From a virus: a DNA stretch of 20,999 nt. Location of the stretch: positions 1-20,999 of the IMG/VR virus record IMGVR_UViG_3300030106_006336; one strand, written 5' to 3'. The notes below the pieces were generated by a model. The model ran no database searches. It was not told where the DNA came from and worked only from the letters and a program-made list of their open reading frames with translations. The translations under genes were made by a program, and so were the position numbers. Below are positions 301-20,999 of the stretch, in pieces (the stretch's first letter is position 1; every line of letters begins with the position of its first letter).

Positions 301-559
301 AGAGCAAGAACAATTAGATTTATATTTTTCTCCTCATGGAGAAACTTTAAAAGCTAGCGCATCAACTCTCAAGGATAACCCAGTGGGTACTTCAGATTAT
401 ATTAATGAAAAACAAAAATCACTTCATTCTCCACGTGGTTACTATGATCCCGATGTTTTTTTAAGTCCACAAAAATTTGTTCAAAAATATAATCCCGATA
501 ATGTAAATGAATATAGACTATTTAAATTAAGCGTTATAGGAGAAAATAATGATGGCTAA
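290..559 (+). CDS. Hypothetical hydrophilic protein, 89 aa
   Basis: I place the start at the GTG at 290, which follows a purine-rich AGAGGG ribosome binding site at about 281-286 and overlaps the preceding gene by 11 bases. The product is hydrophilic and rich in Ser, Asp, Asn and Tyr, with short motifs such as SPHGETLKAS, SPRGYYDPDVFLSP and a hydrophobic C-terminal strand FKLSVIGEN. I do not recognise a family and see no membrane segment. It overlaps the following membrane-protein gene by 11 bases, so the two are probably translationally coupled. Codon use is AT-rich like its neighbours. Confidence 0.65.
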   Translation: MSNKEQEQLDLYFSPHGETLKASASTLKDNPVGTSDYINEKQKSLHSPRGYYDPDVFLSPQKFVQKYNPDNVNEYRLFKLSVIGENNDG

Positions 560-1917: not shown

Positions 1918-2485
1918 TATCAAGGTTGCAATTTTAGAAGCACTTGAAGAGCAATCACCTTTAGATGTAAAAAAAGACCGTGCTAGCGCCGGAGTTGGAA
2001 AAGCTACGGCGATGACTCGTGCGGTAACAAAGGATACTGCTGGCGAGATTAGCCCGCAAGAGCGAAATATCGCAACTAAGGTTTATGAATATATGCTTCA
2101 ATTAGCTGCCGAAGAAGGCATGGATTTGAATACAAAAAGAAATGTCATACAAATTGTTTTTAATTTGCTCGATAAAAGACTTAAGCCCGGTGGCGCCTCT
2201 GATACAGAGGTTGACGACGGACAAACAGTTACCACGGAAGGCCACTGCCCATCCGCCTCACCTGAGCCTTTACCGCAGATGACACACGATTCCGATCATG
2301 GAGAGGGTAGGATGGCTAAGTCTCAATTATATAGAGCAGCGGAGTATGCCTCAGAATTAGAGCAAATGATTCAGGACGGCGATGAATTAGATGCTTGGGT
2401 GCAAGCTAAAATCACCAAAGCTTCCGATTACCTTTCCTCAGTTAAACACTATTTATATTACAAGAACGTCAGAGGAGACCAGTAA
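1898..2485 (+). CDS. Hypothetical protein with C-terminal helical YASELEQMI domain
   Basis: The 195-residue product has three parts. Residues 1-18 form a basic-acidic helix (MKITKNDIKVAILEALEE) of a type repeated at the N termini of other genes here. Residues 20-98 are mainly helical. After a low-complexity Pro/Ser/Asp/Thr linker (about 98-137) comes a compact helical domain at 139-187 with AAEYASELEQMIQDGDELDAWVQAKITKA as its core, spelled here only in part: the key residues are the DELDxWVQAKITKASDY segment. I recall this domain as free-standing small proteins in T4-like marine phages, with no known function. A second, in-frame ATG at 2312, preceded by AGAGGG, could produce that domain alone (57 residues). 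Confidence 0.7.
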   Translation: MKITKNDIKVAILEALEEQSPLDVKKDRASAGVGKATAMTRAVTKDTAGEISPQERNIATKVYEYMLQLAAEEGMDLNTKRNVIQIVFNLLDKRLKPGGASDTEVDDGQTVTTEGHCPSASPEPLPQMTHDSDHGEGRMAKSQLYRAAEYASELEQMIQDGDELDAWVQAKITKASDYLSSVKHYLYYKNVRGDQ

Positions 2486-3034: not shown

Positions 3035-3664
3035 GTGAAACTTACTAAGGCTAGCCTCCAAAAAATAATTATTGAAGAGTATGTGAAAGATACTTTTTTA
3101 GATGAAGCCATGAGCAAAAAGAAAGCTGAGCAAGTTTTGGCTTGGATTAGAGGCGAAGCTCCTCGCCCGGAGTGGCTTACAGATGATTATGGCCTTAGTG
3201 GCAAAGCAAAATCTGGCCAATCGCCTAATGACTCAAATGTGGATAGAGCAGCCCAAACAATGCCTATGGCTAATTTGGGCGACCAAGATCCTGAGCCTGC
3301 AAATGTTGAGGACAAAATCGTCAGCTTGGTACAAGATATGCCGGCCGAAGAGATGCTAGACTTATTTACAGCAGTTATTGAAAAGCTTGCCCCAGAGTAT
3401 ATTGAGCCACAGCGTAGGCAAATAGGTTTTAGAGAAGTAAAGTATATTATCCAAGAAGTATTAAACGAAGTTGGTGATTATCATTTTGGCTTTGGCGATG
3501 AAGAAAAATACGATGCTCTAGATCCACATGGTTTTGGCAGTATGTCAGATGCAGAATTAATGGACATGATTGAAAGAGAAGGTATGGAAGAGATTTTGGT
3601 TACTGATGGTGATGGCGATCTTATCAATCGTGAAGAAGTGATAGCGGCCTTGAAAAATGTATGA
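3035..3664 (+). CDS. Hypothetical acidic protein upstream of terminase
   Basis: I choose the GTG at 3035: it lies two bases after the preceding stop, has AAAGGA at 3021-3026 as ribosome binding site, and gives the N terminus MKLTKASLQKIIIEEYVKD, which matches the N-terminal helix type seen in neighbouring genes. The 209-residue product is acidic and helical, with a second similar helix at about 130-146 (GFREVKYIIQEVLNEVG). Near the C terminus, TDGDGDLINREEV (190-202) looks like a degenerate calcium-binding loop with one position missing. The gene occupies the place where a small terminase subunit is often encoded, but I see no helix-turn-helix or other feature that would support that. It overlaps the terminase start by 4 bases. 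Confidence 0.65.
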   Translation: MKLTKASLQKIIIEEYVKDTFLDEAMSKKKAEQVLAWIRGEAPRPEWLTDDYGLSGKAKSGQSPNDSNVDRAAQTMPMANLGDQDPEPANVEDKIVSLVQDMPAEEMLDLFTAVIEKLAPEYIEPQRRQIGFREVKYIIQEVLNEVGDYHFGFGDEEKYDALDPHGFGSMSDAELMDMIEREGMEEILVTDGDGDLINREEVIAALKNV

Positions 3665-5244
3665 GCTTCAAACTAACAAAAAAAGAAATATTAAAAGAAG
3701 TAGTTAAATGCGGCAAGGACCCATCTTACTTTCTTAAAACATATGCTCGCATCTCACATCCAATGCATGGGTTAATTTTATTCAATACGTTTGATTATCA
3801 AGACGAGTTGCTGAACGACTTCAACGATTATCGCTTTAATGTAATCAACAAGGGACGACAGCTTGGTATTTCCACACTGACTGCTGGATACATTGTGTGG
3901 ATGATGCTCTTCCACCGCGATAAGTCTATTCTTGTTATGGCAACTAAGTTTGAAACGGCTGGAAACCTTGTGCGTAAAGTTAAAAGCATTATGAAAAATT
4001 TGCCTGACTGGATTCGGATTGCCTCCATCTCTACAGATAACCGCACATCTTTTGAGTTATCAAATGGCTCAACTATCAAGGCAGCCTCGACTTCTGGCGA
4101 TGCTGGCCGCTCTGAAGCACTGTCTTTGCTGGTGCTTGATGAGGCCGCACACATTGATGGGCTTGAAGATTTGTGGACTGGTTTGTATCCTACACTTTCT
4201 ACTGGTGGTCGATGCATAGCTATATCAACGCCAAATGGTGTTGGTAACTGGTTTCATAAAACTTGTGTTGGAGCAGAAACAAAAGAAAACAATTTTAAAT
4301 TGACTACATTGATGTGGGATGTACACCCTGAGCGTGATGAAGAGTGGTTCAAGAAAGAAACCAGAAATATGTCACGAAGACAGATTGCACAAGAGCTTGA
4401 GTGCAACTTCAATACTTCAGGGGAAACAGTTATTGATCCTGACGCGCTGGAATGGATAGCAGCAAACGTAACTGAGCCAAAATACAGAACGGCTTTTGAT
4501 CGTAATTTTTGGATTTGGGAAGAGTACGATCCATCTTGCAATTATCTATTGACTGCAGACGTTGCCCGCGGAGACGGGGCTGACTATTCGACATTCCATC
4601 TCATTAAATTAGAGACATTACAGGTTGTCGGAGAGTACCAAGGTAAGCCAACTCCTGATTTATATGCTAACATGTTAAATCAGATTGGAAGAGAATTCGG
4701 AAACGCGATGGTGGTTATTGAAAATAATAGCATAGGATACACAGTTTTAGATAAATTAATTGACTATGCATACCCAAATATTTATTACTCTGTAAAATCT
4801 ACACATGAATATATTGAACAACACATGGCTGAACACAGGAACTCTGCCGTTCCCGGTTTTACCACATCATCTAAGACTCGTCCCTTGGTAGTAGCTAAAT
4901 TAGAAGAGTTTATAAGAAACAAACTAATTACTACATATTCATCCCGATTGGCAAATGAATTGAGAACATTTATTTGGACAAACGGAAAACCCCAAGCATT
5001 AAAAGGATACAATGATGATTTAGTTATGGCACTTGCGATTGCTTGCTGGGTTAGAGACACAGCTTTGCAGACAAATCAAAGAGATTTGAACTACAAGAAG
5101 GCTTTTGTTGATGCTATAATAACTTCACGAACCAGTTTTGACACAAAAATAAAAGGACAAATCGGGTACAAAGAAGATAGCGTTTTAGATAAAATGTCAA
5201 CGGCTGAGAACATGTATAAAGAATTTATGTGGATTATAAAGTGA
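3661..5244 (+). CDS. terL: Terminase large subunit (T4 gp17-like)
   Basis: This 527-residue protein is the DNA packaging motor: an ATPase that pumps DNA into the prohead and a nuclease that cuts the concatemer. The ATPase domain shows a Walker A-type loop at 64-72 (KGRQLGIST, the degenerate form usual in T4-like terminases), Walker B LLVLDEA at 156-162 with D160 and E161, and the coupling motif STPNG at 189-193. The C-terminal RNase H-like nuclease has the expected acidic residues: D300 in LLTADVARGDGADYS, E354 in VVIENNSIGY, and D452/D453 in GYNDDLVMAL. Length and domain order are normal and I see no intron or intein. The start ATG overlaps the preceding stop (ATGA). No small subunit is recognisable upstream. 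Confidence 0.96.
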   Translation: MSFKLTKKEILKEVVKCGKDPSYFLKTYARISHPMHGLILFNTFDYQDELLNDFNDYRFNVINKGRQLGISTLTAGYIVWMMLFHRDKSILVMATKFETAGNLVRKVKSIMKNLPDWIRIASISTDNRTSFELSNGSTIKAASTSGDAGRSEALSLLVLDEAAHIDGLEDLWTGLYPTLSTGGRCIAISTPNGVGNWFHKTCVGAETKENNFKLTTLMWDVHPERDEEWFKKETRNMSRRQIAQELECNFNTSGETVIDPDALEWIAANVTEPKYRTAFDRNFWIWEEYDPSCNYLLTADVARGDGADYSTFHLIKLETLQVVGEYQGKPTPDLYANMLNQIGREFGNAMVVIENNSIGYTVLDKLIDYAYPNIYYSVKSTHEYIEQHMAEHRNSAVPGFTTSSKTRPLVVAKLEEFIRNKLITTYSSRLANELRTFIWTNGKPQALKGYNDDLVMALAIACWVRDTALQTNQRDLNYKKAFVDAIITSRTSFDTKIKGQIGYKEDSVLDKMSTAENMYKEFMWIIK

Positions 5245-5252
5245 GAAAATAA

Positions 5253-7238
5253 ATGGCACCAAGAAACAATAGAAAAGGCAAAAACCCAGTTAACACACAG
5301 TCATCGTTGTTCAAATCGTTGACCAGACTGTTCTCTGGGCCTATCGTTACATATCGCTCACAATCAGGGCGCAAAATACGGAGACAACATCTTGACAAAT
5401 ACGCTGCAAGATTTAAGACTGCCTCTGGCCAACAGTTTAAAAAGCAAACTTATAATCCTTTGGATACCATAGCGTCTAACGCCATAGCAAACCAGAGAAG
5501 AAGCGAAAGATATATTGATTTTGATCAAATGGAGTACATGCCTGAGATTGCCTCATCGCTTGATATTTACGCAGATGAGATGACAACGTTCTCAGCGCTC
5601 CGTCCTATGCTGAATATCAATTGCACCAATGAAGAAATTAAAGCAGTGCTTGATTTGCTGTACCATAACATTTTGAATATTGAATATAATCTTTTTGGTT
5701 GGTGTCGTACTATGTGCAAATACGGCGACTTCATGCTTTACTTGGATATTGACGACAAGATGGGCGTTCAGTCTGCAATCGCACTGCCCCTGCAAGAAGT
5801 CGAGAGACTTGAGGGTTTAGATTCAACAAACCCTAACTACGTCCAGTATCAGTGGAACTCTGCCGGCATGACCTTTGAAAACTGGCAAGTTGCACATTTC
5901 CGTATATTGGGTAATGATAAGTACGCACCTTATGGCTCTTCTGTTTTGGAACCAGCCCGTCGTATTTGGCGACAGCTTACTCTTATGGAAGACGCTATGA
6001 TGGCATACCGTGTTGTTCGCTCATCCGAGCGACGTGTGTTTAAGATTGACGTTGGCGCAATTCCCCCACAAGATGTGGAAGGGTACATGCAAAAAATTGT
6101 ATCTCAACTGAAGAGGCACTCTATCGTTGATAAAGATACTGGTCGTGTTGATCTTAGATATAACCCTCTCTCAATTGAAGAGGACTACTACATCCCAGTG
6201 CGTCAGGGTTCGGCAACGGACATAACAAACTTGGCTGGTGGTTCAAATACTACGGAAATTGACGATATCAAATACCTCCGTGATAAGCTTTTCTCGGCTT
6301 TAAAAATTCCTCAATCATATCTTTCAATGGGCGAGGGAGCAACCGAAGATAAGACTACGTTAGCGCAGAAAGATATCCGTTTTGCCCGTACCGTACAAAG
6401 GTTACAAAGGACAGTTATACATGAACTTGAAAAAATCGGAATTATCCATCTTTATACTCTTGGTTTCCGCGGAGACGATCTTATTAATTTCAAACTTTCT
6501 TTGAATAACCCATCTAAGATTGCCGAGCTTCAAGAGATTGAGCACTGGAAAGCTAAGTTTGATATTGCAGGAGCGGCCACTGAGGGCTATTTCTCACGCA
6601 GATGGGTAACAGAAAACATATTCAATATGTCTCACGAAGAGTTTGCTAGAAACCAACGCGAAATGTACTATGATCGTAAGCATGATGCAGCCCTTCAAGC
6701 TGTGGCAGAAGCACAAGCTGCAGGCGCCGCCGGCGGTGGGGGAGGCTTAGACCTTGGTGGCGGAGACGACGCCGGCGGTGGCTTAGATCTTGGTGGTGAC
6801 GCTGGTGGAGACGCCGGCGCGGAAGGCGGTGGTTTAGACTTGGGCGCTGACGCACCCGCGGCTGAACCAGAAGGCGGTGGTGAAGATGATACACTACTAG
6901 CCGCCCCTCCCGGCTCTAGAAATGCTCCACGCTTGACACCCGGTTCAAAAGGTAAGGTCTACCATCCGGTTAAGACAGATTCTCGTCCTTCTGGTGCTCG
7001 CACAAGAAATTATGCACGTATCGCAACACCAGAAACAAACACATATCGCACCAATAATTTAGGTGGTGCCGAGCTTAGATCCTTGTCTAGAGGCATTTAT
7101 GAGGAAGAAGAGCCTATTTATTCATTGAATGAGCAAAAAGAAGAACAGAAAATGTTATCGATGAATAAATCTTTAACAAATCTTCTGGAAGATCTTAGCA
7201 ATAAAGAAAAGTTAACGGAGCAAAATGATGAAGGCTAA
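5253..7238 (+). CDS. gp20: Portal vertex protein (T4 gp20-like)
   Basis: The portal is the dodecameric ring at one head vertex through which DNA is packaged and to which the tail attaches. Supporting segments are EYMPEIASSLDIYADEMTTF (94-113), SSERRVFKIDVGAIPP (257-272), DDIKYLRDKLFSALKIPQSYL (337-357, here a key T4-portal signature) and TLAQKDIRFARTVQRLQ (369-385). The fold is complete by about residue 480. The remaining 180 residues are unusual: a Gly/Asp/Ala tract (491-548) with repeated GGGLDLGG units, a Pro/Arg/Thr-rich linker (550-605), and a charged helical end. At 661 residues it is longer than T4 gp20, mainly through this tail. It starts 8 bases after terminase, and overlaps the next gene by 14 bases. 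Confidence 0.95.
   Translation: MAPRNNRKGKNPVNTQSSLFKSLTRLFSGPIVTYRSQSGRKIRRQHLDKYAARFKTASGQQFKKQTYNPLDTIASNAIANQRRSERYIDFDQMEYMPEIASSLDIYADEMTTFSALRPMLNINCTNEEIKAVLDLLYHNILNIEYNLFGWCRTMCKYGDFMLYLDIDDKMGVQSAIALPLQEVERLEGLDSTNPNYVQYQWNSAGMTFENWQVAHFRILGNDKYAPYGSSVLEPARRIWRQLTLMEDAMMAYRVVRSSERRVFKIDVGAIPPQDVEGYMQKIVSQLKRHSIVDKDTGRVDLRYNPLSIEEDYYIPVRQGSATDITNLAGGSNTTEIDDIKYLRDKLFSALKIPQSYLSMGEGATEDKTTLAQKDIRFARTVQRLQRTVIHELEKIGIIHLYTLGFRGDDLINFKLSLNNPSKIAELQEIEHWKAKFDIAGAATEGYFSRRWVTENIFNMSHEEFARNQREMYYDRKHDAALQAVAEAQAAGAAGGGGGLDLGGGDDAGGGLDLGGDAGGDAGAEGGGLDLGADAPAAEPEGGGEDDTLLAAPPGSRNAPRLTPGSKGKVYHPVKTDSRPSGARTRNYARIATPETNTYRTNNLGGAELRSLSRGIYEEEEPIYSLNEQKEEQKMLSMNKSLTNLLEDLSNKEKLTEQNDEG
6723..6896 (+). 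repeat. Gly/Asp-rich repeat tract in portal C-terminal region
   Basis: Codons for portal residues 491-548 are almost entirely Gly, Asp, Ala, Leu and Glu. The unit GGGLDLGG or a close variant recurs at about residues 496-503, 508-515 and 525-531. The DNA is GC-rich compared with the flanking portal sequence and uses varied Gly and Asp codons, so the repeat is not a very recent duplication. The encoded segment is probably disordered, acidic and flexible. Confidence 0.8.
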
Positions 7239-9527: not shown

Positions 9528-10133
9528 ATGGGCCAGAAGCTACTTAGAGAATTTTATGAACTGTGCGAAGGCGGCGTATGCCAAGACCTTCTTACTGAAG
9601 ATGAAAAGCGTTATGTTGCCGATGGCGGCATGATGCTTACTGGCAAACTTCAAGAAGCCGATGTATTAAATGGAAACCAGCGCGTATACCCATATAAAGT
9701 ATTGGCCCGAGAAGTAAAGAACTATAAAAAGCTTGTAGGTGAAAACAGAGCACTAGGTGAGTTAGATCACCCAGATGACTCAGTTATTAATCTTAAAAAC
9801 GCATCTCACTTAGTCACTGATATATGGATGGAAGATAAAGCCGTAATGGGTAAGGTGAAAGTGCTAAACACTCCATCTGGTCAGGTTTTAAAATCTCTGG
9901 TAGAAAGTGGAGTCAAGCTTGGTATTTCTAGCCGCGGCATGGGTTCTGTTTCTGAATCAAATGACACCACCGTTGTTCAAGAAGATTTTCAGTTAATATG
10001 CTTTGACTTTGTTTCTGAGCCCTCGACGCCCAATGCTTTCATGATGAAAGAAGCAAAAGATTACAACAATCAAGTATTCACCAAAGCCGACCGTATTAAC
10101 AGACTGTTAAACGAGGTTTTGGATTGTGAGTAG
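9528..10133 (+). CDS. gp21: Prohead core protease (T4 gp21-like)
   Basis: This 201-residue serine protease matures the prohead by cutting scaffold, capsid and internal proteins, usually after Glu in (L/I)xE sites. The catalytic His is in GELDHP (H81) and the Ser is in GISSRGMGSV (S134 or S135), both hallmark segments of T4-type prohead proteases. FDFVSEPSTPNAFM (159-172) is also typical of the family. Length is close to that of T4 gp21 (about 210 residues). AAAGGG at 9514-9519 gives a good ribosome binding site 8 bases before the ATG. The end overlaps the next gene by 8 bases, so the protease and a probable core protein are translated together. Confidence 0.93.
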   Translation: MGQKLLREFYELCEGGVCQDLLTEDEKRYVADGGMMLTGKLQEADVLNGNQRVYPYKVLAREVKNYKKLVGENRALGELDHPDDSVINLKNASHLVTDIWMEDKAVMGKVKVLNTPSGQVLKSLVESGVKLGISSRGMGSVSESNDTTVVQEDFQLICFDFVSEPSTPNAFMMKEAKDYNNQVFTKADRINRLLNEVLDCE

Positions 10134-12192: not shown

Positions 12193-12195
12193 ATA

Positions 12196-12202
12196 CTATT
12201 TA
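12196..12202 (+). promoter_or_regulatory. CTATTTA motif, candidate late-promoter core
   Basis: The gap 12193-12233 holds CTATTTA (context ATACTATTTACTA), 31 bases before the ATG at 12234. Four further copies lie in the other gaps of the structural block. It differs from the T4 late promoter TATAAATA but has similar size and composition. A promoter role is inferred from repetition and placement. Confidence 0.45.
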
Positions 12203-12233
12203 CTACGAATGATTTAAATTTTGGAGAATTAAC

Positions 12234-12701
12234 ATGTCAAATTGGTCAGACCCATCATGGAAAATGCGAGTAGGAGTTAACCATGCTCCTGCTTATCAAG
12301 TTAGCGGCCGTCCCTTTGCTTCAGGAGGCATTGATGCTTTACCTGATCAGGCAGTTGTAAACTTCCCATATGTTACAAGATGGGTTCAAGTGATCAACTC
12401 CACTTCAGCATCAATTAAAGTCGGATTCGGTCCTAACTCTTTTGATCCCGCAATTAATAACTATTTTGTAATTCCTAGCGGTTCTAATAGTGAACGACTG
12501 GAGGTTAAGGTCAGCAGACTTTATGTTAGTGGTGGTAGCGATTCAGGTAGAAGCGGCGGAGATCTTGGTATCTCTGTCGTTGCAGGACTTACAAGTATTG
12601 ACGCTAGCCAAGTTAACCCTCCGACAGGCTCTAGAGATCAGTGGCACTTAGAGCCCGGTAACAACATTAGCTGGTCAGGTTCATATAACGGAGTCGGCTA
12701 A
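12234..12701 (+). CDS. Probable virion surface protein, YQVSG type
   Basis: The 155-residue product begins MSNWSDPSWKMRVGVNHAPA and then YQVSGRPFASGG; beta-rich segments follow (VVNFPYVTRWVQVINSTS, SIKVGFGP, NYFVIPSGS, LEVKVSRLYVSGG, LGISVVAGL). I recall a family of marine T4-like phage structural proteins with a N-terminal xYQVSGxP motif followed by FPxVT strands, but it has no firm function; a decoration or fibre-base role would fit a small all-beta protein. It is the first gene after the first real intergenic gap, with GGAG upstream and a CTATTTA motif, so it probably opens a new transcript. Ends 3 bases before the next start. Confidence 0.65.
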   Translation: MSNWSDPSWKMRVGVNHAPAYQVSGRPFASGGIDALPDQAVVNFPYVTRWVQVINSTSASIKVGFGPNSFDPAINNYFVIPSGSNSERLEVKVSRLYVSGGSDSGRSGGDLGISVVAGLTSIDASQVNPPTGSRDQWHLEPGNNISWSGSYNGVG

Positions 12702-12704
12702 TAT

Positions 12705-13436
12705 ATGTCAAGATTTGGTTGGGCATATGTAAACTGCGATGAAACATCTAGCGGAGCCAACGCCGAGGGCGTCACAGGCTCCGTAATGTTCTTGACTGGA
12801 AGCGGTAACATTTCCGGCTCGAATTACTTTATGTACAATTATGATGGTTCTGTCCCCGGAGCCGGCGGTACAACCAGCAGTCTTATCCTGACTGGGACAT
12901 TTTTTATCTCTGGGGCAATCTCCGCTAGTAGTTATCACTTTGAAGATATAACTAGGATTGAAGCAAGCGGCTCAACAAGGTTTGGTAATACAAACGATGA
13001 TCAGCACGTTAGAACTGGTAGCTTAACAATCGGCCGAACAAATCAAGTGACATTTCATGTAGACTCAGAAAATCGCCAAATCAGTATGCCATATGGTATC
13101 AAATATGGATACGCTACTGTTTCAGGCAACACAGGTGTGATAACTTACGCTTCATCTTCTAACCGTAATTACATTATCGGTGTAAAAGGCCAATGCCCAG
13201 TTGAAATTAGATTACACTCTGCATCTGGATCCGGTGACGTTGCCCAGACTGGATCGCTGATTGTTATCAAAGATGAATTCACCGGTGAACGCATGCCAAT
13301 TGACGGTGTTCCTGCCTCAATTGTTCTGTCTGGAACCGATGGAGAAACAATTGATGGCGAGCCGTATTACGAAATGACAGGCACAATGACCGCATTATCT
13401 GTTTATTCTAATGGCTCTAATTGGTTTGTCTTCTAA
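12705..13436 (+). CDS. Fibre-like protein 1 with shared C-terminal beta module
   Basis: The 243-residue product is rich in Gly, Ser and Thr and looks all-beta, with repeating strand-turn motifs (GSVMFLTGSGNISGSN, LILTGTFFISGAISAS) of the kind seen in phage fibres. Residues about 155-243 form a module shared with the next two genes: Y-I-I-G-V, an EIRL strand, SLIVIKDE (184-191), then ETIDG (214-218) and TALSVYSNGSNWFVF at the end (229-243). I recall such IKDE...TIDG...LYS.G.NWF.. endings in many phage fibre proteins. It probably forms trimeric fibres or surface spikes. Only a distant GGAG (12690-12693) precedes the ATG, so initiation may be weak or coupled. Confidence 0.7.
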   Translation: MSRFGWAYVNCDETSSGANAEGVTGSVMFLTGSGNISGSNYFMYNYDGSVPGAGGTTSSLILTGTFFISGAISASSYHFEDITRIEASGSTRFGNTNDDQHVRTGSLTIGRTNQVTFHVDSENRQISMPYGIKYGYATVSGNTGVITYASSSNRNYIIGVKGQCPVEIRLHSASGSGDVAQTGSLIVIKDEFTGERMPIDGVPASIVLSGTDGETIDGEPYYEMTGTMTALSVYSNGSNWFVF

Positions 13437-13453
13437 TTATAATTGTATAATTA
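13434..13453 (+). promoter_or_regulatory. AT-rich inverted repeat in the 13437-13472 gap
   Basis: TAATTATA at 13434-13441 and TATAATTA at 13446-13453 form a perfect 8-bp inverted repeat around ATTG, overlapping the stop of the preceding gene. The second arm contains TATAAT, but no convincing -35 element is seen at the right distance. It may be an operator, a weak hairpin, or chance in AT-rich DNA. This gap is the only one of the larger gaps in the block without CTATTTA. Confidence 0.35.
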
Positions 13454-13472
13454 TATTAGAGGGCTGATATAG

Positions 13473-14255
13473 ATGGGATACAATATCTTATCGGGAAACG
13501 TATTACTTCCCGGTCAATTGTTGGCAGATGGTCAAGTTTCTTCTAGCGCTTTTGTAGGAGATGGCAAAGAATTAGAGCATGTTCTAAAAATCACATCTGG
13601 TCCCGATCAATATAACTTAACGACAATTGGAACCGATGCCTATAAATTAACCGGCCAATCTAATTTAACTTTTAACGGTTCAGCGCTCACAGTAACTGGA
13701 GAAGTCTCAGCAAGTGTTGGAATGTCTTCATCATTTTTTATTGGTGATGGCAGGTTCCTAACGAATGTTCCGGGTGCTGGTTCCGCTGGTGGAATATTTA
13801 CACAACTCAGTGCAGATAAAGCTGCAACCACCAGTAGTATAGCAATTGGCGGTACCACCGCCCCTGATCATGCTATAGCTCTTAGTGGTGCCATGTCGGC
13901 CAGTTTAAATGTTTCCGCTTCTGGCTTTGTCGGTGGGCGCTTACATATATCTGGCGCAGTAGTTTATCACCACAAAACTTCAACGGCAACTATGACTGCA
14001 TCAGTGGATGATTTTTATATTGGAATGGACTCTACTGCTGGTGCAATAGAATTAAGACTGCCTGATGCCGCAGTCCTGACAGATGGTCATACTTATATAA
14101 TTAAAGATGAGGGAGGTGAAGCTGGGACCAACAATATAACAATTTTAGCCTCTGGTTCCCAAACAATCGACGGTGAAAATTCACTAATTTTGGAGTCACC
14201 CTATGCATCTCTTTCACTTTATTGTAATGGCTTTGATCGGTACTACGTTTACTAG
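13473..14255 (+). CDS. Fibre-like protein 2 with shared C-terminal beta module
   Basis: The 260-residue product begins MGYNILSGNVLLPGQL, resembling the starts of the 14343 and 15859 genes (MAYKFQFGTT, MAYNIIKGRV). The middle is a run of strand-turn units (LTFNGSALTVTGEVSAS, ALSGAMSASLNVSASGFVGG), typical of fibre shafts. Residues 181-260 are the clearest copy of the shared module: IELRLPDAAVLTDGHTYIIK, DEGGEAGTNNITILASG, QTIDG, ESPYASLSLYCNG and a final RYYVY. AGAGGG at about 13461-13466 precedes the ATG. Function as a fibre or spike attached to the head or tail is inferred; the capsid-gene setting makes a head attachment possible. Confidence 0.7.
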   Translation: MGYNILSGNVLLPGQLLADGQVSSSAFVGDGKELEHVLKITSGPDQYNLTTIGTDAYKLTGQSNLTFNGSALTVTGEVSASVGMSSSFFIGDGRFLTNVPGAGSAGGIFTQLSADKAATTSSIAIGGTTAPDHAIALSGAMSASLNVSASGFVGGRLHISGAVVYHHKTSTATMTASVDDFYIGMDSTAGAIELRLPDAAVLTDGHTYIIKDEGGEAGTNNITILASGSQTIDGENSLILESPYASLSLYCNGFDRYYVY

Positions 14256-14321
14256 TTGATTTTAGACCTATTTATGAGCAACAGGCGTCTTGTACGTCTG
14301 TTTAAACTATTTAAAAATCAA
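14256..14321 (+). promoter_or_regulatory. Nested hairpin leader with two CTATTTA motifs
   Basis: The gap 14256-14342 begins right after a stop. Outer arms TTGATTTT (14256-14263) and AAAATCAA (14314-14321) are perfectly complementary. Inside, AACAGGCG (14280-14287) pairs with CGTCTGTT (14295-14302) with one G-U pair around a 7-base loop. CTATTTA occurs at 14268-14274 and 14307-14313, the latter 29 bases before the ATG at 14343. There is no U tract after the inner stem, so I read it as a leader or regulatory structure, not an intrinsic terminator. Confidence 0.5.
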
Positions 14322-14342
14322 TTTATATGGAGGGTTTTATAA

Positions 14343-15767
14343 ATGGCTTATAAATTTCAATTTGGTACCACCAAACTCAGCGGTTCAACGACATTCGAAG
14401 AAGCGTTAGTTGGTGAGTCCACAATCTCAGGTTCAGGAAGACTTTCTGGTAAAGAACTTATTCTTGATGCTGTTGGTGTCATTGGAACCAGTGGAGACGC
14501 TGATCTTTTGACTCTTAGTTCTAACAAACTTACCGTTGCTGGCGATGTTTCAGCTTCTATTGATCTTCAAGGCGCAAGCGTCGTGATCAAGCAAAATGGT
14601 ACGGTTGGTGTCGCTGGCGACATCGATCTTATGACACTTGCTCCTAACTCAGTTAGCGTTGCAGGTGCACTTTCAGCTTCTGGTCAAGTTGATCTTCCGG
14701 GCGCTGTGCGCTTCGGTACTGAAAACCAATTAACTGTTTCAGGCGTTGGTCTTCTTTCCGGTTCTGCTACTGCTACTTTAGCAAACGCAACATTAGACCG
14801 CATTACTGTCGGTGACGCTGACATTAACGGCGGCGCTATTGATGGTGCAGTTATTGGTGGCAACAGTGCTGCTGCCGGTACCTTTACTAACATTTCTGGT
14901 TCTGGTACATTACACGCTGGCGGCGTGGTTACATTCGGTGAAAGAGCGCTTACAGTTTCGGCTGCTGGTGTACTGTCATCTTCTGCAACTGCTACTTTGG
15001 CAAACGCTACTTTAGATCAAATCACTGTCGGTTCTGCTGACATTAACGGTGGTGCGATTGACAACACAGCGATTGGTGGAACTACTCAGGCAGCTGGTGA
15101 GTTCACTACTCTTTCAGCTTCAAGCACTTTGAACGTTGTCGGTGCTTCTAACTTTGGTCCCGGAAACCTTGCTAGCATCTCTGCTGCTGGTGTTGTTTCT
15201 GGTTCTGGTGATTCTACACTTCACAGACTTGATTCTAACCGACTTGTCTTTGCCTCTGGTTCACTTAACGGACCAATGTACATCAACAAGTTGGCTACTA
15301 CGGTAGACGAAATCATGGGCTTAAGTTCCGGTAGTCTTCTCTATCACGATGAAGCGACTGGCTTACAGAAGCTTGGTTCATTCTCAAGCTATGCCACAGC
15401 TCTTGCTGGTACAGGTATTACTGCTACTGACGGTGTTCTTTCTGTTGATACCACCGGTGGTGACAGCATGTCTGCTACTCACATTCCAGTAGCTAGCTAT
15501 GGTAACGCCACTCTTGTTGTTGGACTTAACTTCATGGTAAATGACGCAACTGGCTCTTGCAGCTTCTTGCTTCCTTCTGCTTCGGCTGGAGATGTCGTTA
15601 TCGTTAAGGCCCCAGCGGGTGTTAGCTCAACTAACTTCGTTAAAATCTCATCTTCTGTTGCCCAAGGTGACGAGATTGATGGTTTCTCTGAAGCACGTAT
15701 TGAATCACCACATGGTGCTGTATCGTTGATCTATTCTAACTCTGATAGTAAGTGGGTCATCTACTAG
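14343..15767 (+). CDS. Fibre-like protein 3, probably very highly expressed
   Basis: The 474-residue product begins MAYKFQFGTTKLSGSTTFEE and consists of beta repeats. Residues 130-202 and 203-275 are tandem copies of 73 residues carrying SATATLANATLD, TVGxADINGGAID and AIGG..AAGxFT, a pattern known from phage fibre shafts. The C-terminal module (394-474) matches the two preceding genes: CSFLLPSAS, VVIVKAPAG, DEIDG, ESPHGAVSLIYSN, WVIY. Codon use stands out: 20 of 22 Asn codons are AAC, against 4 of 11 in the gene just upstream. With the strong GGAGGG site (14329-14334), the structured leader and the terminator behind it, this suggests an abundant virion protein. Attachment site in the particle is unknown. 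Confidence 0.72.
   Translation: MAYKFQFGTTKLSGSTTFEEALVGESTISGSGRLSGKELILDAVGVIGTSGDADLLTLSSNKLTVAGDVSASIDLQGASVVIKQNGTVGVAGDIDLMTLAPNSVSVAGALSASGQVDLPGAVRFGTENQLTVSGVGLLSGSATATLANATLDRITVGDADINGGAIDGAVIGGNSAAAGTFTNISGSGTLHAGGVVTFGERALTVSAAGVLSSSATATLANATLDQITVGSADINGGAIDNTAIGGTTQAAGEFTTLSASSTLNVVGASNFGPGNLASISAAGVVSGSGDSTLHRLDSNRLVFASGSLNGPMYINKLATTVDEIMGLSSGSLLYHDEATGLQKLGSFSSYATALAGTGITATDGVLSVDTTGGDSMSATHIPVASYGNATLVVGLNFMVNDATGSCSFLLPSASAGDVVIVKAPAGVSSTNFVKISSSVAQGDEIDGFSEARIESPHGAVSLIYSNSDSKWVIY
14730..15167 (+). repeat. Two tandem 219-bp coding repeats in the fibre gene
   Basis: Copies at 14730-14948 and 14949-15167 encode 73 residues each. The clearest anchor is gacattaacggyggygc, at 14820 and 15039, exactly 219 bases apart. 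Protein identity is high (SATATLANATLD and ADINGGAID are the same in both), while many third positions differ, so the duplication is older than that at 10780. A third, shorter relation (SISAAGVVSGSGDSTL) follows at 15177. Confidence 0.85.
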
Positions 15768-15795
15768 GCCGAGATTGTTTTACAATTTCTTTTTT

Positions 15796-15828
15796 GGATG
15801 TCTCCCGAAAGGGGGGCATCCTTTTTTT
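15796..15828 (+). terminator. Strong intrinsic terminator
   Basis: GGATGTCTCCC (15796-15806) pairs with GGGGGGCATCC (15811-15821) in an 11-bp stem with two G-U pairs, closed by a GAAA tetraloop (15807-15810) and followed by seven T (15822-15828). This is a textbook Rho-independent terminator. It lies 28 bases after the 14343 gene stop. A weaker 5-bp stem (ATTGT/ACAAT, 15774-15786) with a T-rich tail precedes it. Confidence 0.92.
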
Positions 15829-15832
15829 CGTA

Positions 15833-15839
15833 CTATTTA
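15833..15839 (+). promoter_or_regulatory. CTATTTA motif just after the terminator
   Basis: CTATTTA begins 5 bases after the terminator T tract and 19 bases before the ATG at 15859. Since the terminator would stop most transcripts, the gene behind it needs its own promoter, which makes this copy the strongest support for the motif being a promoter element. Confidence 0.5.
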
Positions 15840-15858
15840 GAATGAGGAAGGTAAAAAC

Positions 15859-18414
15859 ATGGCTTATAATATCATTAAAGGAAGGGTAGAATTTTCAAAC
15901 TCATCCACTGGATCTATTGAAAGTTTAGTAGACATTTGGAGAAATCAATCAGTTGGGGGCACCAAAACATTCACTAATAACATTACTGCTAGTGGATATT
16001 GGGATTCAACTCGCAATGCTAAATTGGAGCCACTATCCACCTTGATTTCTACTGATGGTGCCAATAGAGTTTTAACTTCCGATGGTGATGGTACTTTAAC
16101 GGCGGAGACGTATGTATCTATTACAGACGTTGGGGCTAATGCCTCTTCGGTTTCAGTCACCGGTCACATAACAGGCTCTACATTTTCGGGGTCTGCCCAC
16201 GGCTTAACTGGCATTATATTAAACAAGGATCACCTTGCTGCCACAAACTATGACGGACTTGTAAACAGATTGTCAGCATCAAATATTGTTTTGGGTATTG
16301 GTATGTCTAGTAGTGTTGATCCGGGCGGAACCGGCCATGGCGCTGAATTACAAGTTACTGGTGGTCAAGGTATCACTGTTGATACTGAGGGCGTTCGCGT
16401 TCTCACAGCCTCAAATGGTGGATTGGCATTTACGGGCTTAACTTTGCAAGTAGACGCGTCCAAGACTTCAAATAAAGGAGGAGGCCCGTCTAACAATGAT
16501 GAATTTATTATCGCTGATTCAAGCGACAGTGACTCAATTAAAAACTTGACATATAGTCAAATTAAAACAGCGATCACTGACAGTATTTCAGTTCCAATCG
16601 CGTCGTACACAAATAGTGGAGATAACAGAATTATCACCTCAGTTAACTCAACAACGGTTAATGGCGAAGCAAATTTATCATTCGATGGCAGCAGTCTTGA
16701 AGTTAGTGGAAACATTAGCGTTAGTGGTTCAGAAAACATGCCGGGCTTTTATATTGATAATTCCCAAATAGCTTCCCACAGCAACACAAATATTGGTATT
16801 AACACTGATAATCCAGACGGAACACTTACTGTCACAAGACATGGTGCTCAATCAATCACCTACATACAGCGCTCAGGCTCAGCTTTTGCTAGTGATGGGT
16901 TAGATATTGGTGAATTGAGATTTCAAAACAAAACTCCGGGCCTTCTTTCATCTAGATACTCCGCTAGAATTTTAGCAGAGGCAGATGGTTCAGAACATAA
17001 CGCTGAATCGCAACCGGGCCGACTTTCATTTTGGACATGCCCAACAGGGACAGTTGATCCTGTTGAGCGTATGGTCATCAATAACTCTGGTAACATTGGA
17101 ATTGGATTCAACTCGCCATCAAGCGTTCTTTATGTCAATGGCGATATTACTTCCTCGCTTGGAGTACACGTCACAGGTTCGGATCCACATATTTCAATTG
17201 GTTCCCGCCGCGGCTCTTCAACAAACGCCATTATGCTTAATGTAAAACCGGGCCAAGGCGCCGGCGAAGCGATGAATAATAAAATTTTAGCGCTATTTTC
17301 AAGATCAGAAGAAACTGATGAACGAACTATTCTTGCTGTAACTGGCTCTGGTAAAGTCGCTGTTGGCGGTGCTAACTTGGCTGGTGTTTTCAACGTGAGT
17401 GGTTCCGATAACGAAAAGCTTGTCAATGTCAAAAGCGATTCCGCCTCTGATATCCTTGCCATTACAGGTTCCGGAAGAGTCGGGGTTATGAAAACTTATC
17501 CGAGCAGTAGTTTGCATGTAGGTGGAAATTTGACCGTTGAAGCTGTAACCCCAACTCTACACTTCAGCAGCAGCACTGCTGACTTGGGGCAGATTGGATT
17601 TAATGACTCAAGCAACATTGTAGTTCAAAATAATACGATAAACAAACATATCGTTTTTAAAACTAACGACGCTAGTACAATGAGAGAGGGACTTAGAATA
17701 GATGGCGCGGTACCTGAAGTTGTGGTTAATCAGGGCGATGATTCATTGATTGACTTTAGAGTGGAAAGCGCCAACAATACACACATGCTGTTTGTCGATG
17801 GTGGCAACGAAAAGGTTGGTATCAACACTGATACTCCATTACACACGCTATCAGTCACTGGTTCAACTTCAGTTTCAGCCGGTATTACGGGCTCAGGTGG
17901 TTTCCACGCTACAGGTAGTAACCCACATGTTGCTATCGGTGACAATTATGGGCATGATGCATCGTCTGGAATGCTGTCAATCAGACCATCAGACTCAAAC
18001 AACAAAGTTTTGTGCTTAATGCAGTCCAAACAAGGTGGCCCAAATGCAAATAGAATAATTTTTGGAGTCACTGGTTCTGGCCAAGTATTGGTCGGCGGCG
18101 CTCATTTTGGCGGTGTCTTAAATGTTTCCGGCGCAAGCAATGAAAAACTTATATCTGCTAAATCAAATACTCATAACCCGGCGTTTTACGTTAGTGGTTC
18201 TGGTGATACCTTTCAGACTGGATTTTTGTCGGCTTCGTACATTAAAACTACGACCTATACAGTGGCTGACTTGCCAGCTGCCGCCGACGCCGGCGCCGGA
18301 GCAAGAGCTTTTGTTACAGATGCCTCTGCGACCACATTTGCTTCAACTGTATCAGACGGTGGTTCCAACGCTGTGCCGGTATATTCAGACGGCACTAACT
18401 GGAAAATAGGATAA
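15859..18414 (+). CDS. Large fibre-like protein, 851 aa
   Basis: The N terminus MAYNIIKGRVEFSNSSTGSI resembles those of fibre proteins 2 and 3. The body is beta-repeat sequence. Four units of the (N/R/K)(I/V)G(I/V)xxxxPxxxLxVxG type, common in phage fibre shafts, occur at about 311-326, 412-428, 540-557 and 652-668; ERMVINNSGNIGIG (403-416) is a classic form. A domain of about 130 residues is present twice (411-540 and 650-782). The C terminus ends GARAFVTDASATTFAS..YSDGTNWKIG (814-851), an ending I recall from many tail-fibre proteins. It lacks the shared module of the preceding three. GAGGAAGG before the ATG is a good binding site. Probably a receptor-binding or head fibre; the receptor is unknown. 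Confidence 0.8.
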   Translation: MAYNIIKGRVEFSNSSTGSIESLVDIWRNQSVGGTKTFTNNITASGYWDSTRNAKLEPLSTLISTDGANRVLTSDGDGTLTAETYVSITDVGANASSVSVTGHITGSTFSGSAHGLTGIILNKDHLAATNYDGLVNRLSASNIVLGIGMSSSVDPGGTGHGAELQVTGGQGITVDTEGVRVLTASNGGLAFTGLTLQVDASKTSNKGGGPSNNDEFIIADSSDSDSIKNLTYSQIKTAITDSISVPIASYTNSGDNRIITSVNSTTVNGEANLSFDGSSLEVSGNISVSGSENMPGFYIDNSQIASHSNTNIGINTDNPDGTLTVTRHGAQSITYIQRSGSAFASDGLDIGELRFQNKTPGLLSSRYSARILAEADGSEHNAESQPGRLSFWTCPTGTVDPVERMVINNSGNIGIGFNSPSSVLYVNGDITSSLGVHVTGSDPHISIGSRRGSSTNAIMLNVKPGQGAGEAMNNKILALFSRSEETDERTILAVTGSGKVAVGGANLAGVFNVSGSDNEKLVNVKSDSASDILAITGSGRVGVMKTYPSSSLHVGGNLTVEAVTPTLHFSSSTADLGQIGFNDSSNIVVQNNTINKHIVFKTNDASTMREGLRIDGAVPEVVVNQGDDSLIDFRVESANNTHMLFVDGGNEKVGINTDTPLHTLSVTGSTSVSAGITGSGGFHATGSNPHVAIGDNYGHDASSGMLSIRPSDSNNKVLCLMQSKQGGPNANRIIFGVTGSGQVLVGGAHFGGVLNVSGASNEKLISAKSNTHNPAFYVSGSGDTFQTGFLSASYIKTTTYTVADLPAAADAGAGARAFVTDASATTFASTVSDGGSNAVPVYSDGTNWKIG
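17089..18204 (+). repeat. Dispersed pair of about 130-codon repeats in the large fibre gene
   Basis: Residues 411-540 (17089-17478) and 650-782 (17806-18204) share, in order, VGI..xxP...L.V.G, a TGSxPHxxIG segment, a helical-looking KxLxLxxx stretch, then VTGSGxVxVGGAxxxGVxNVSGxxNEKLxxxKS and a final GSG. Protein similarity is clear but DNA identity is modest, so it is an old duplication or a module with structural constraint. Confidence 0.75.
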
Positions 18415-18520
18415 CAACATATAAAACTACAACAGACGGTGATTACTAATTGTAAAAAAATGGTTTTTGTAGATAGTGGACACTATTTACAGTGAATTAC
18501 TGTTTTATAGGAGTTTTTAC
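18415..18520 (+). promoter_or_regulatory. Intergenic region before scaffold with CTATTTA and two dyads
   Basis: This 106-base gap contains CTATTTA at 18483-18489, 31 bases before the scaffold ATG. A dyad ATAGTG/CACTAT (18473-18478 and 18481-18486) overlaps its start, and ACAGT/ACTGT (18489-18493 and 18499-18503) follows, then TTTTAT. AGGAG at 18508-18512 is the scaffold ribosome binding site. I see no strong terminator after the fibre gene. A promoter, possibly with an operator or a short leader hairpin, is the likely content. Confidence 0.5.
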
Positions 18521-19834
18521 ATGTCATCTTTACTTGAGCAAGCATTCGTTGATGCTAAGGCACTTAAGGAGGCAGCCTTGAAAAATGCCGAGGCTACTAT
18601 TGTCGAAAAATATTCGGCTGAGGTTAAGGAAACCTTAGAAAAAATTCTTGAACAAGATGCTTTAGGCTTAGGAGCTGCAGCAGGTGATGCAATGGGGGCT
18701 GCACCGATGGGCGGTGGCGCTGACGGCATAGAAGATGTGCCGCTTGGCGCTGCAGAGGGAGAGGATCTTTGCCCTTGTGATGATGAGGGAGAAGAGTCTA
18801 CAATTAAAATTAATTTTGATGAGCTTGCCGAGACACTTCAAAAACTTGAAGAAGACTTGGATACTTCTGTTATTGAGGAAGATGAAGAAATTGAGCTTAC
18901 CGAAGAAGATTTTGCTGCCCTTACTGAAGATGATGACGAGGACCCACAGGGTTCAGGAGAAATGGCTGGCGATTCTGGCAGTGCAGGCGAAGGAGAGGCT
19001 GCAGCAGCCCAAACCGCCGCGGCTGGAGAGCAAGATGAAAAAGCTATGAAGGGAATGGAAGAAGAAATTAACTTTGATTCACTCGTAGATGCAATTATGG
19101 AAAAGATTTCGCTTGATGAGGCTGAAGAAGAAATTGAAGAAGCCAAAGGCGAAAAAGGTGATGCAGATCCACTTGATGGAGAGCGCGCTAAATTTGATAA
19201 AGATCATGATGGTGTCCCAGACGGCGCAGATAAAGACAAAGATGACCCGGATGTTAAAGAAGAAATTGAATCCGACTCTTTGATTGATGCTGTAATGGAA
19301 AAACTGTCAGTTGATATGGGAGCATCCTTGTCCGGTTGGGCAGGACGCTCCTCTGATGAAAAGAAATTTGAAATGGAGAAGGAGCTTGCCCACCGACGCA
19401 ACACTGAACTCCAAGACGAATTAAACGATTTGAAACAAGCTCAAGAAGAGTTGGTTTTTGAAAATAACCAACTCAAAGAGAAGCTTCAAAACTACGAAAA
19501 CGTAGTTGAGCAATTAAAAGAAAGCGTCACAGACGTTAATCTTTCTAATGCTCGTTTATTATACACGAACCGCGTGTTAAGAAATACCTCCTTAAATGAG
19601 CGACAAAAAGATAAAGTTGTCGAAGCGATTTCTAAAGCTGGTTCTGTTCCGGAAGCAAAGACAATTTTTGAAACGCTTCAAAGCACAGTGGAGTCTACGC
19701 CTAAACGTGGGCCACAATCACTGAGCGAAACGATCAACCGTCGTTCTTCCATTCTTCGTGCTAGCAGCCGCAGTGAGGCGAAACCCGCCGATCCGCTGTC
19801 AGATAGAATGAAGAAACTAGCAGGTATTAATTAA
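18521..19834 (+). CDS. gp22: Prohead core scaffold protein (T4 gp22-like)
   Basis: The scaffold fills the prohead, shapes the capsid and is destroyed by the prohead protease before DNA entry. I start it at ATG 18521 (AGGAG 8 bases upstream); an in-frame GTG at 18476 lies before the binding site. The 437-residue product is very acidic and helical: a N-terminal helix (MSSLLEQAFVDAKALKEAAL), Gly/Ala-rich and Glu/Asp-rich stretches with many (L/I)xE sites, a coiled coil at about 285-335, and NLSNARLLYTNRVL (340-353) with NERQKDKVVEAISKA, typical of T4-like scaffolds. It ends MKKLAGIN. Unusual are a DKDHDGVPDGADKDKDDPD segment (226-244) and a duplicated DSLxDAxMEKxS helix flanking it. Position directly before the capsid gene matches T4. 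Confidence 0.9.
   Translation: MSSLLEQAFVDAKALKEAALKNAEATIVEKYSAEVKETLEKILEQDALGLGAAAGDAMGAAPMGGGADGIEDVPLGAAEGEDLCPCDDEGEESTIKINFDELAETLQKLEEDLDTSVIEEDEEIELTEEDFAALTEDDDEDPQGSGEMAGDSGSAGEGEAAAAQTAAAGEQDEKAMKGMEEEINFDSLVDAIMEKISLDEAEEEIEEAKGEKGDADPLDGERAKFDKDHDGVPDGADKDKDDPDVKEEIESDSLIDAVMEKLSVDMGASLSGWAGRSSDEKKFEMEKELAHRRNTELQDELNDLKQAQEELVFENNQLKEKLQNYENVVEQLKESVTDVNLSNARLLYTNRVLRNTSLNERQKDKVVEAISKAGSVPEAKTIFETLQSTVESTPKRGPQSLSETINRRSSILRASSRSEAKPADPLSDRMKKLAGIN
19196..19252 (+). other. Calcium-loop-like Asp motif within the scaffold
   Basis: Scaffold residues 226-244 read DKDHDGVPDGADKDKDDPD. The spacing DxDxDGVxDxxDxDxDDxD resembles thrombospondin type 3 repeats and EF-hand loops, which bind calcium through such Asp side chains. 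Metal binding is inference. The motif lies between two copies of a helix with DSL(V/I)DA(I/V)MEK(I/L)S. Confidence 0.6.
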
Positions 19835-19852: not shown

Positions 19853-20999
19853 ATGGCTGGTATTATTGAAAGATTGACCGAAGGTGTTGTCAATCGTGAT
19901 ATGCGTGCCGAAGGTCACGCCCTACTGTCAAAGTGGGAAAAGACTGGACTCTTAGAAGGACTCGGTGATGAGCGCACCAAGAATGGTATGGCTCGTCTTC
20001 TTGAGAACCAAGCTAAGGAGCTTCTTCGCGAAGCAACCGCCATGAACGCTGGTGATGTGCAAGGTTTTGCTGCCGTCGCATTCCCTATCGTTCGTCGCGT
20101 TTTCGCAGGCTTGATCGCAAACGATCTTGTTTCTGTACAACCTATGAGCCTCCCAAGTGGACTCATTTTCTTCCTTGACTTCACATTCTCAGAAGATCTT
20201 GGTGGAGATGGAACACAAATTGGTAAGCTTGGTAACGTTGCTGGAAAATCCATCTACGGTACTGATCGAGTTGGTGCTGAAATCACCGGCGGTGTTGACA
20301 TTGTTGACGTCCGTGGTGGTGACCTTTCTGGTCCACGCGCTTCCGCTCGCGGTTACGCTTATGGCTCTCCAAGTGGTTCGGACGCATCTGTTGTAGGTGT
20401 TTACGTCACTGGTGCTGCTATTTTCCCAAGCATGACCAACCTTGATAGAAAGTTAATCGAATTCGATCCTGACCTTCTTTCACATGATGATGGCACTGGT
20501 ACTGCCACACACGCATATGCAGTTATCGCAATCTCTGCATCTGCTCTTGATCAGCTTGATCTGGACAACTTGTCCGCTATTACCTCTTCTGCCACAACTA
20601 CAGTAAGCGCTGCAGACATGTTGGCTGGTGAGACTGGTAAGACAAGAATTGTTGGTAATGGTGCACGTCTTGTACGTCGTCTGACCCGCCCAGTTCCAGA
20701 GGGTATCGCTTCAAGCCTTAAGATTGGTTTGGACGATGCTACCGCTGGTGATTCAATCCTTCTTACTTGGGTTGGTAGAACCGGTTCTGCTGCTGATGAG
20801 GTCCGTGTGACTGGTGCTAACCTTGGTCAGGACGGTGCTCCCGCGCCTACTAAGGCGATGAGTGCTTCTTGTACTTGGTTGTTCCCACAAACCGACGACT
20901 TCTCCAATGGTGATAACTCCATTGGTTCTGTCCAAGGTACTACAGTTTGGGGCCTTGAAGGTCAAGCAGACATTCCTGAGATTGACATCAAGGTTGACA
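19853..20999 (+). CDS. gp23: Major capsid protein (T4 gp23-like), 5' part
   Basis: The frame is open from ATG 19853 to the window end, 382 codons, with AAGGAG 10 bases upstream. It begins MAGIIERLTEGVVNRDMRAE and contains the signatures of T4-like major capsid proteins: KWEKTGLLEGL (28-38), FPIVRRVFAGLIANDLVSVQ (77-96), QPMSLPSGLIFFLDF (96-110). The N-terminal 60 residues are helical and would be the propeptide; LLRE-A (57-61) fits the T4 protease rule and lies close to the T4 gp23 cut at residue 65. A serine/glycine-rich stretch follows around 125-160. T4 gp23 has 521 residues, so about a quarter or more is missing here. Codon use favours highly expressed forms (about 8 of 12 Asn codons are AAC). 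Confidence 0.96.
   Translation, partial: MAGIIERLTEGVVNRDMRAEGHALLSKWEKTGLLEGLGDERTKNGMARLLENQAKELLREATAMNAGDVQGFAAVAFPIVRRVFAGLIANDLVSVQPMSLPSGLIFFLDFTFSEDLGGDGTQIGKLGNVAGKSIYGTDRVGAEITGGVDIVDVRGGDLSGPRASARGYAYGSPSGSDASVVGVYVTGAAIFPSMTNLDRKLIEFDPDLLSHDDGTGTATHAYAVIAISASALDQLDLDNLSAITSSATTTVSAADMLAGETGKTRIVGNGARLVRRLTRPVPEGIASSLKIGLDDATAGDSILLTWVGRTGSAADEVRVTGANLGQDGAPAPTKAMSASCTWLFPQTDDFSNGDNSIGSVQGTTVWGLEGQADIPEIDIKVD

Follow-up and report, generated by a model that had tools for sequence, protein, structure and literature searches.

The 20,999-nucleotide (nt) stretch analyzed here (the window) comprises bases 1–20999 of a 44,627-base IMG/VR virus contig (IMGVR_UViG_3300030106_006336; G000), and its intergenic gaps contain repeated copies of the octamer ACTATTTA, i.e., CTATTTA with a preceding A. 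This octamer is very probably the late promoter of a T4-related phage clade, namely a single −10-like box at −13 to −6 that would be read by a sigma factor of the gp55 family. The computed support comprises the enrichment of the motif, its strand specificity, its placement, its conservation, a purine at the predicted transcription start (+1), its link to virion genes, and a gp55 homologue encoded by relatives. From the sequences we infer the binding of this sigma factor to ACTATTTA, the start sites, the timing, the partner protein, and the relation to a clamp.

CTATTTA occurs 10 times on the + strand of the window and 0 times on the − strand, compared to 3.8 copies expected over both strands, and 0 of 100 shuffled sequences attained 10 copies. 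The octamer ACTATTTA itself is present in 7 copies, versus 1.0 expected. Half of the CTATTTA copies (5/10; p = 6e-5) are non-coding and fall within ~380 nt of gap sequence, with non-coding DNA making up ~5% of the window according to our own gene call. They are located at 12196, 14268, 14307, 15833, and 18483, exactly where the first-pass annotation of this DNA had placed them. It had also described three copies 29–31 nt and one copy 19 nt before a start codon; the measured distances to the ATG were 31 (12196), 29 (14307), 31 (18483), and 19 nt (15833), with the 14268 copy 75 nt from its start codon. The strong terminator that it had seen right before one copy was located just upstream of 15833. 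On the whole 44.6-kb contig, where every predicted gene is on the + strand, CTATTTA was found 16 times forward and 0 times in reverse, and 10 of the 16 copies were non-coding (p = 1.4e-9).

The first-pass annotation had proposed that the word be counted in the full genome and its relatives and that an extended motif be built. Both were done, using 11 related contigs with genes predicted by a simple in-house open reading frame (ORF) caller. CTATTTA was present in 89 sense and 3 antisense copies in the non-coding DNA of these contigs, and in 117 sense and 22 antisense copies in coding DNA. This corresponds to 2.26 (sense) and 0.076 (antisense) copies per kb of non-coding DNA, and to 0.14 and 0.026 copies per kb of coding DNA, respectively. 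When intergenic 8-mers were ranked against an order-2 Markov expectation, ACTATTTA was the top-ranked word (78 seen, 2.0 expected, reverse complement 2, z = 48). The next 7-mer families after the motif were TTGACA-type and Shine-Dalgarno words. In another 17 contigs, which the search for the sigma gene described below had turned up, ACTATTTA summed to 257 sense versus 16 antisense copies, and the reversed-pattern control in the same contigs gave 116 versus 111; one of these contigs (G028) had a sense:antisense ratio of 8:4 only. The same method recovered ATAAATA in cyanophage S-CAM3 and Ochrobactrum phage OC, which served as positive controls instead of T4 because early promoter words dominate the T4 k-mer ranking. 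The T4 consensus TATAAATA has no well-placed copy in the gaps of the window, as had been noted before, and only 2 sense copies in the 39 kb of non-coding DNA of the 11 contigs. Hence, ACTATTTA was filed as a variant and not as the T4 promoter itself.

The position of the motif is conserved. It was found upstream of the orthologues of genes 12234 (10/10 distinct regions), 18521 (7/7), and 15859 (4/5), and this conservation in place holds with orthologue proteins down to about 40–41% identity. Genes internal to operons lacked it, as shown by portal (0/43 orthologous regions), gene 13473 (0/13), and major capsid (0/6). Outside the window, CTATTTA preceded the tail sheath and tail tube genes in 5/6 and 3/5 regions, and in 6/6 and 5/5 when CTACTTA was counted as well. 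The copies at 14268 and 14307 were unconserved, because they were found in 1 of 4 orthologous upstream regions and that one was the window's own. The first-pass annotation had regarded about five other copies as coding background. Their number was correct (10 in total, 5 non-coding), but the copy at 2449 is conserved in 29/48 orthologous upstream regions and is thus a predicted conserved promoter inside an ORF end, so this background is partly signal. The copy at 518 is well placed (31 nt), yet conserved in 1/28 regions only.

The profile of the 89 non-coding sites reads A(88%)-CTATTTA, i.e., ACTATTTA. The positions upstream of it carry at most 0.36 bit each, hence there is no strong −35 box. 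T4 numbering, with the last A set to −6 as in T4, gives A-13 C T A T T T A-6 and places +1 12 nt after the C. A purine is present at this predicted +1 in 85% of ACTATTTA sites (p = 4e-9), which is the strongest signal downstream of the box, and the same +1 position peaks at the ATAAATA sites of S-CAM3 and OC. Like a T4-type late promoter, the motif consists of one conserved octamer (−13 to −6) built around a TAnnTA core. The sites cluster 15–35 nt upstream of start codons. At −9, the bases T, C, and A were found in 78, 15, and 11 sense copies (3, 0, and 0 antisense), and almost nothing else is tolerated; CTACTTA replaces CTATTTA at the putative tail-tube and tail-sheath promoters of some relatives. 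Terminator-like structures were enriched before gaps with the motif, with an odds ratio of ~5–6 relative to other similar-sized gaps (p about 4e-4).

The genes downstream of the motif differ from those downstream of TTGAC-type sites. In the related contig G001, the motif lies upstream of scaffold-like, tail sheath, tail tube, baseplate, and fibre-like genes, and TTGAC-N-TA...T sites lie upstream of helicase, polymerase, GroEL, and primase genes. In PHROG scans of three genomes, the motif set contained tail sheath (three times), tail tube, and head-tail adaptor, and the TTGAC-type set contained DnaB, GroEL, primase, SbcC, and exonuclease. Repeated strong early promoters of the form TTGACATTT..TTGACA..GTTATATTATA were also observed ahead of small genes in the region 86748–96856 of oriented G001. 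The word GTTATATT, considered as a second phage motif, was rejected, as it is part of the early TTGACA-type promoters. The DNA polymerase gene of contig G003 (L107:11735-15169) has the late-type motif and its G001 orthologue a TTGAC-type site, which possibly represents a switch of expression class.

Other explanations of the motif were weighed against these results. It could be an RNA element in 5′ leaders, such as an mRNA processing or regulator-binding site, which would likewise be strand-specific and located upstream of start codons. We consider this improbable, because the purine peak falls exactly at the gp55-type +1, sites immediately follow terminators, after which a further promoter is required, the distance to the start codon varies (15–35 nt), and a matching core is present in another phage with the same kind of sigma. 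There is a similarly small chance that the motif belongs to ordinary host promoters, as their −10 box, and is recognized by a sigma factor of the host. TATTTA loosely resembles a −10 hexamer, but the sites have no strong −35 box, and the same genomes place TTGACA/TATAAT-type promoters at a different gene class. Moreover, sigma-70-like sites occur in this region at chance level (14 found versus 14.1 expected), and the TATTTA core recurs in Flavobacterium phage immuto, where the Bacteroidota-like TATATTTG is found 0 times and TATATTTA 31 times. A chance or compositional artefact of AT-rich gaps, to which the AT-rich word CTATTTA and the unconserved copies at 14268 and 14307 could point, is refuted for the motif as a class by the excess over the Markov expectation (78 versus 2.0, reverse complement 2) and by the position kept in divergent relatives. 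It still has to be reckoned with for individual copies, e.g., the one at 14268.

A late promoter of this kind would be read by a gp55-type sigma factor, and a homologue of this family is encoded by the relatives. The family phrog_234 (late sigma, T4 gp55 family) matched exactly one place in each of 5/5 large relatives and one in immuto, and the longer late sigma phrog_12791 gave zero matches. The homologue is 230–245 amino acids (aa) long, was retained in 80 returned contigs, and is at least 62% identical to the first sequence across 50 aligned contigs. In an hhalign comparison with 25 gp55 sequences (probability 94.8, E 5e-8, 108 columns), the match covered the RNA polymerase- and promoter-binding part of gp55 (sigma region 2). 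The protein is also homologous to the annotated late sigma factor of phage OC (E 1e-3), and its AlphaFold2 models are all-helical, with predicted local distance difference test (pLDDT) values of 77 and 82. The gp55-like part is followed by an extra helical domain with the C-terminus ..FKSDWENGKI, and this sigma has no C-terminal sliding-clamp-binding tail. An SLFDM-like tail sits not on the sigma but on the adjacent ~100-aa protein, whose ORF lies directly downstream of the sigma gene in 80/80 contigs (L138-L217; e.g., L138:10672-10974). This small protein has no family match and ends in a DKxxLFDxIQ-type tail in nearly all contigs; the tail resembles the C-terminus of the T4 DNA polymerase gp43, EEKASLDFLFG. 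The clamp-binding motifs that form the tails of gp43, gp55, and gp33 can replace one another in T4 (PMC2988020). The ~100-aa protein is a candidate gp33 counterpart, and not more than a candidate. The sigma gene also adjoins baseplate-hub-like genes.

Several observations weigh against a late promoter read by such a sigma. The relatives are non-independent samples with all genes on one strand, and the genes with the motif include one DNA polymerase, one PhoH, and one HNH gene as exceptions. The gp55 match is remote (E 0.003–0.005 in a whole-library hmmscan), and Foldseek searches with the whole model and with the region-2 part returned weak matches only, none with E below 0.001, among them several sigma factors (sigmaE region 2, SigA, and SigW). 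The phrog_234 search found the sigma gene absent from the window's own 44.6-kb contig, and the window's phage presumably encodes it as its relatives do. The T4 clamp gp45 (phrog_223) was not found, and neither was the bacterial clamp PF02768. The proposal of the first-pass annotation, a late-promoter variant recognized by a divergent gp55, is nevertheless supported by the enrichment, the T4-like geometry, the virion genes downstream, and a gp55 homologue in every large relative searched.

According to the mechanism proposed here, the host RNA polymerase core would pair with the phage gp55-family sigma (230–245 aa), and this sigma would open the DNA at ACTA(T/c/a)TTA. Transcription would begin on the purine 5 nt after the box, a short leader of ~10–30 nt would precede the virion genes, and the virion operons would be driven late in infection. 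The early and replication genes would be transcribed from host sigma-70-type TTGACA/TATAAT promoters. A more far-reaching and tentative proposal, which we regard as rather unlikely, is that the clade represents a separate branch of the gp55 system, with specificity moved at −12, −9, and −8 and with a rebuilt activation apparatus that has no recognizable phage clamp. This apparatus would consist of a longer sigma with a C-terminal helical domain, encoded beside a small partner bearing the clamp-binding-like tail. In that case, the late genes might couple to a host clamp or another clamp. T4 late transcription is the textbook example of a sigma coupled to the replication clamp, with a structure from one phage, and a different box together with a rebuilt sigma would provide a natural experiment in promoter specificity. 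This specificity is directly testable, because the bases that differ are the very ones seen flipped in the T4 structure. The motif can also serve as a rule by which late operons are annotated in hundreds of metagenomic contigs, in which the sigma gene is now 'hypothetical'.

PHROG matches identify the window as a T4-related head and packaging block, and its features are listed in Table 1. The C-terminus of the 18521 gene product matches the protein that precedes the major capsid gene in immuto. The major head protein gene (19853) is presumably co-transcribed from the predicted promoter at 18483.

Table 1. Predicted promoter elements, terminator, and genes of the window.
Feature	Position	Strand	Evidence or remark
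ACTATTTA within the end of an ORF, 31 nt upstream of ATG 549; possible lineage-specific promoter	517..524	+	conserved 1/28
Predicted late promoter core ACTATTTA inside 3′ end of preceding ORF, 36 nt before ATG 2485	2448..2455	+	conserved 29/48
Terminase	3661-5244	+	phrog_2, E 4e-56
Portal	5253-7238	+	
Protease	9528-10133	+	
ACTATTTA as predicted late promoter core (−13 to −6) upstream of gene 12234, with +1 expected at A 12208	12195..12202	+	conserved 10/10
Gene downstream of the 12196 promoter, 155 aa	12234..12701	+	no PHROG match
Tail-fibre-like genes	13473-18414	+	
CTATTTA lacking the A at −13, 75 nt upstream of ATG 14343; doubtful, possibly a chance occurrence	14268..14274	+	
ACTATTTA as probable late promoter core upstream of gene 14343; weaker evidence, as C stands at the predicted +1	14306..14313	+	well placed (29 nt), not conserved
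Intrinsic terminator (GC-rich hairpin and T run) at the end of the upstream operon, immediately ahead of the predicted 15833 promoter	15796..15828	+	
ACTATTTA as predicted late promoter core immediately after the terminator and upstream of tail-fibre-like gene 15859, with +1 expected at A 15845	15832..15839	+	conserved 4/5
Tail-fibre-like protein gene downstream of the 15833 promoter	15859..18414	+	phrog_9942 tail fiber, E 5e-8
ACTATTTA as predicted late promoter core upstream of probable scaffold gene 18521, with +1 expected at A 18495	18482..18489	+	conserved 7/7
Probable prohead scaffold gene downstream of the 18483 promoter	18521..19834	+	position directly before major capsid gene; C-terminal match to immuto protein
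Major head protein gene, without its own CTATTTA	19853..20999	+	phrog_138, E 2e-15

Relatives with a terminase 79–97% identical to that of the window are abundant in IMG/VR and include contigs of 146–194 kb, and the sigma-gene search added further relatives of up to 203 kb. The nearest isolate is immuto, whose terminase (TerL) is 47% identical. The clade is a large, almost uncultured, mainly marine group of T4-related bacterial viruses. One strand carries all predicted genes of a 194-kb relative contig. In the relatives G001–G003 (e.g., L090:12517-15951, − strand), a T4-related virion module is joined to a non-T4 replication module with a large polymerase (phrog_405), a DnaB-type helicase, a primase, a UvsX-like recombinase, and a phage GroEL. 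T4 gp43, gp44, gp45, gp62, and gp33 as phmmer queries gave zero matches, and the replication apparatus is therefore unlike that of T4. Short N-terminal leaders (MKLLxENWRxYLxE or MKITKxxLKQIIKEEL) recur in many proteins that are otherwise unrelated, with such N-termini at 8632 and 10126 of the window and at 1049, 1305, 1696, 10981, 12543, 105884, 109770, 111021, 193440, and 193754 of oriented G001. These leaders recall the capsid-targeting sequences of T4 that are cut off by the prohead protease, and the proteins bearing them are possibly internal head proteins.

The late promoter of T4 is TATAAATA at −13 to −6 (PMC1524935). As in T4 (PMC2988020, PMC1524935, PMC7892883), the element described here consists of one box (−13 to −6) and has no −35 element. 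The bases T-11, A-10, T-7, and A-6 are retained in ACTATTTA, a purine start lies at the same distance, virion genes are located downstream, and a gp55-family protein is present in the relatives. In contrast to TATAAATA, the clade has A instead of T at −13, C instead of A at −12, and T instead of A at both −9 and −8. The T4 structure shows A-12, A-9, and A-8 flipped by gp55 into pockets (Y97; N13 and H95; and T99, respectively) (PMC7892883), and the bases changed at −12, −9, and −8 are exactly those flipped and read by T4 gp55. The pocket residues alone (F92/Y94/S96, aligned to T4 H95/Y97/T99) were considered as the cause of TT and rejected: F and S are insufficient because cyanophages have F and Aeromonas phage Aeh1 has S, and both keep A at −9/−8. 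Unlike T4 gp55, the sigma of the clade is 45–60 residues longer, and the extra helical end replaces the clamp-binding tail.

We found no report of CTATTTA or TATTTA as a phage late promoter in the open-access literature (subscription papers were not covered). The closest published box found was that of Aeh1, CTAAATA starting at −12 (PMC1524935), which shares with the clade the C at −12 and a divergent gp55. However, Aeh1 has AA at −9/−8, whereas the clade has TT and tolerates C or A only at −9. The computed element of S-CAM3, ATAAATA, has the same start-codon spacing and +1 purine position, but S-CAM3 combines a TAAATA core with a classic short gp55, and the core here is TATTTA; both short-gp55 phages, S-CAM3 and OC, pair with TAAATA. 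In Microcystis phage Mel-JY01, which combines a related long sigma with a weaker TATTTA-core signal, ATATTTAT was seen 18 times versus 2.6 expected, with 1 antisense copy. Over all non-coding DNA of this phage, ATATTTA showed a weaker strand bias (31:21), and the support is weaker than that from immuto. The 484-kb uncultured phage LR756508 (L352) encodes a 29%-identical long-sigma homologue and has a weak CTA(C/T)TTA signal in its gaps. The computed element of immuto (MW353177), TATATTTA, was found in 31 sense versus 2 antisense copies. About 15 copies of an extended form, TATTTAGGTA(TCAATAATTAA), which is longer than the usual late box, were also observed upstream of immuto genes (L334-L341). 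The immuto element differs from that of the clade in having mostly A, not C, at −12, and many of its copies run on as TATTTAGGTATCAATAATTAA. Like the clade, immuto has the TATTTA core with TT at −9/−8, a nearly one-strand genome, and a 240-aa homologue of the same sigma, which is 29–34% identical and annotated as hypothetical.

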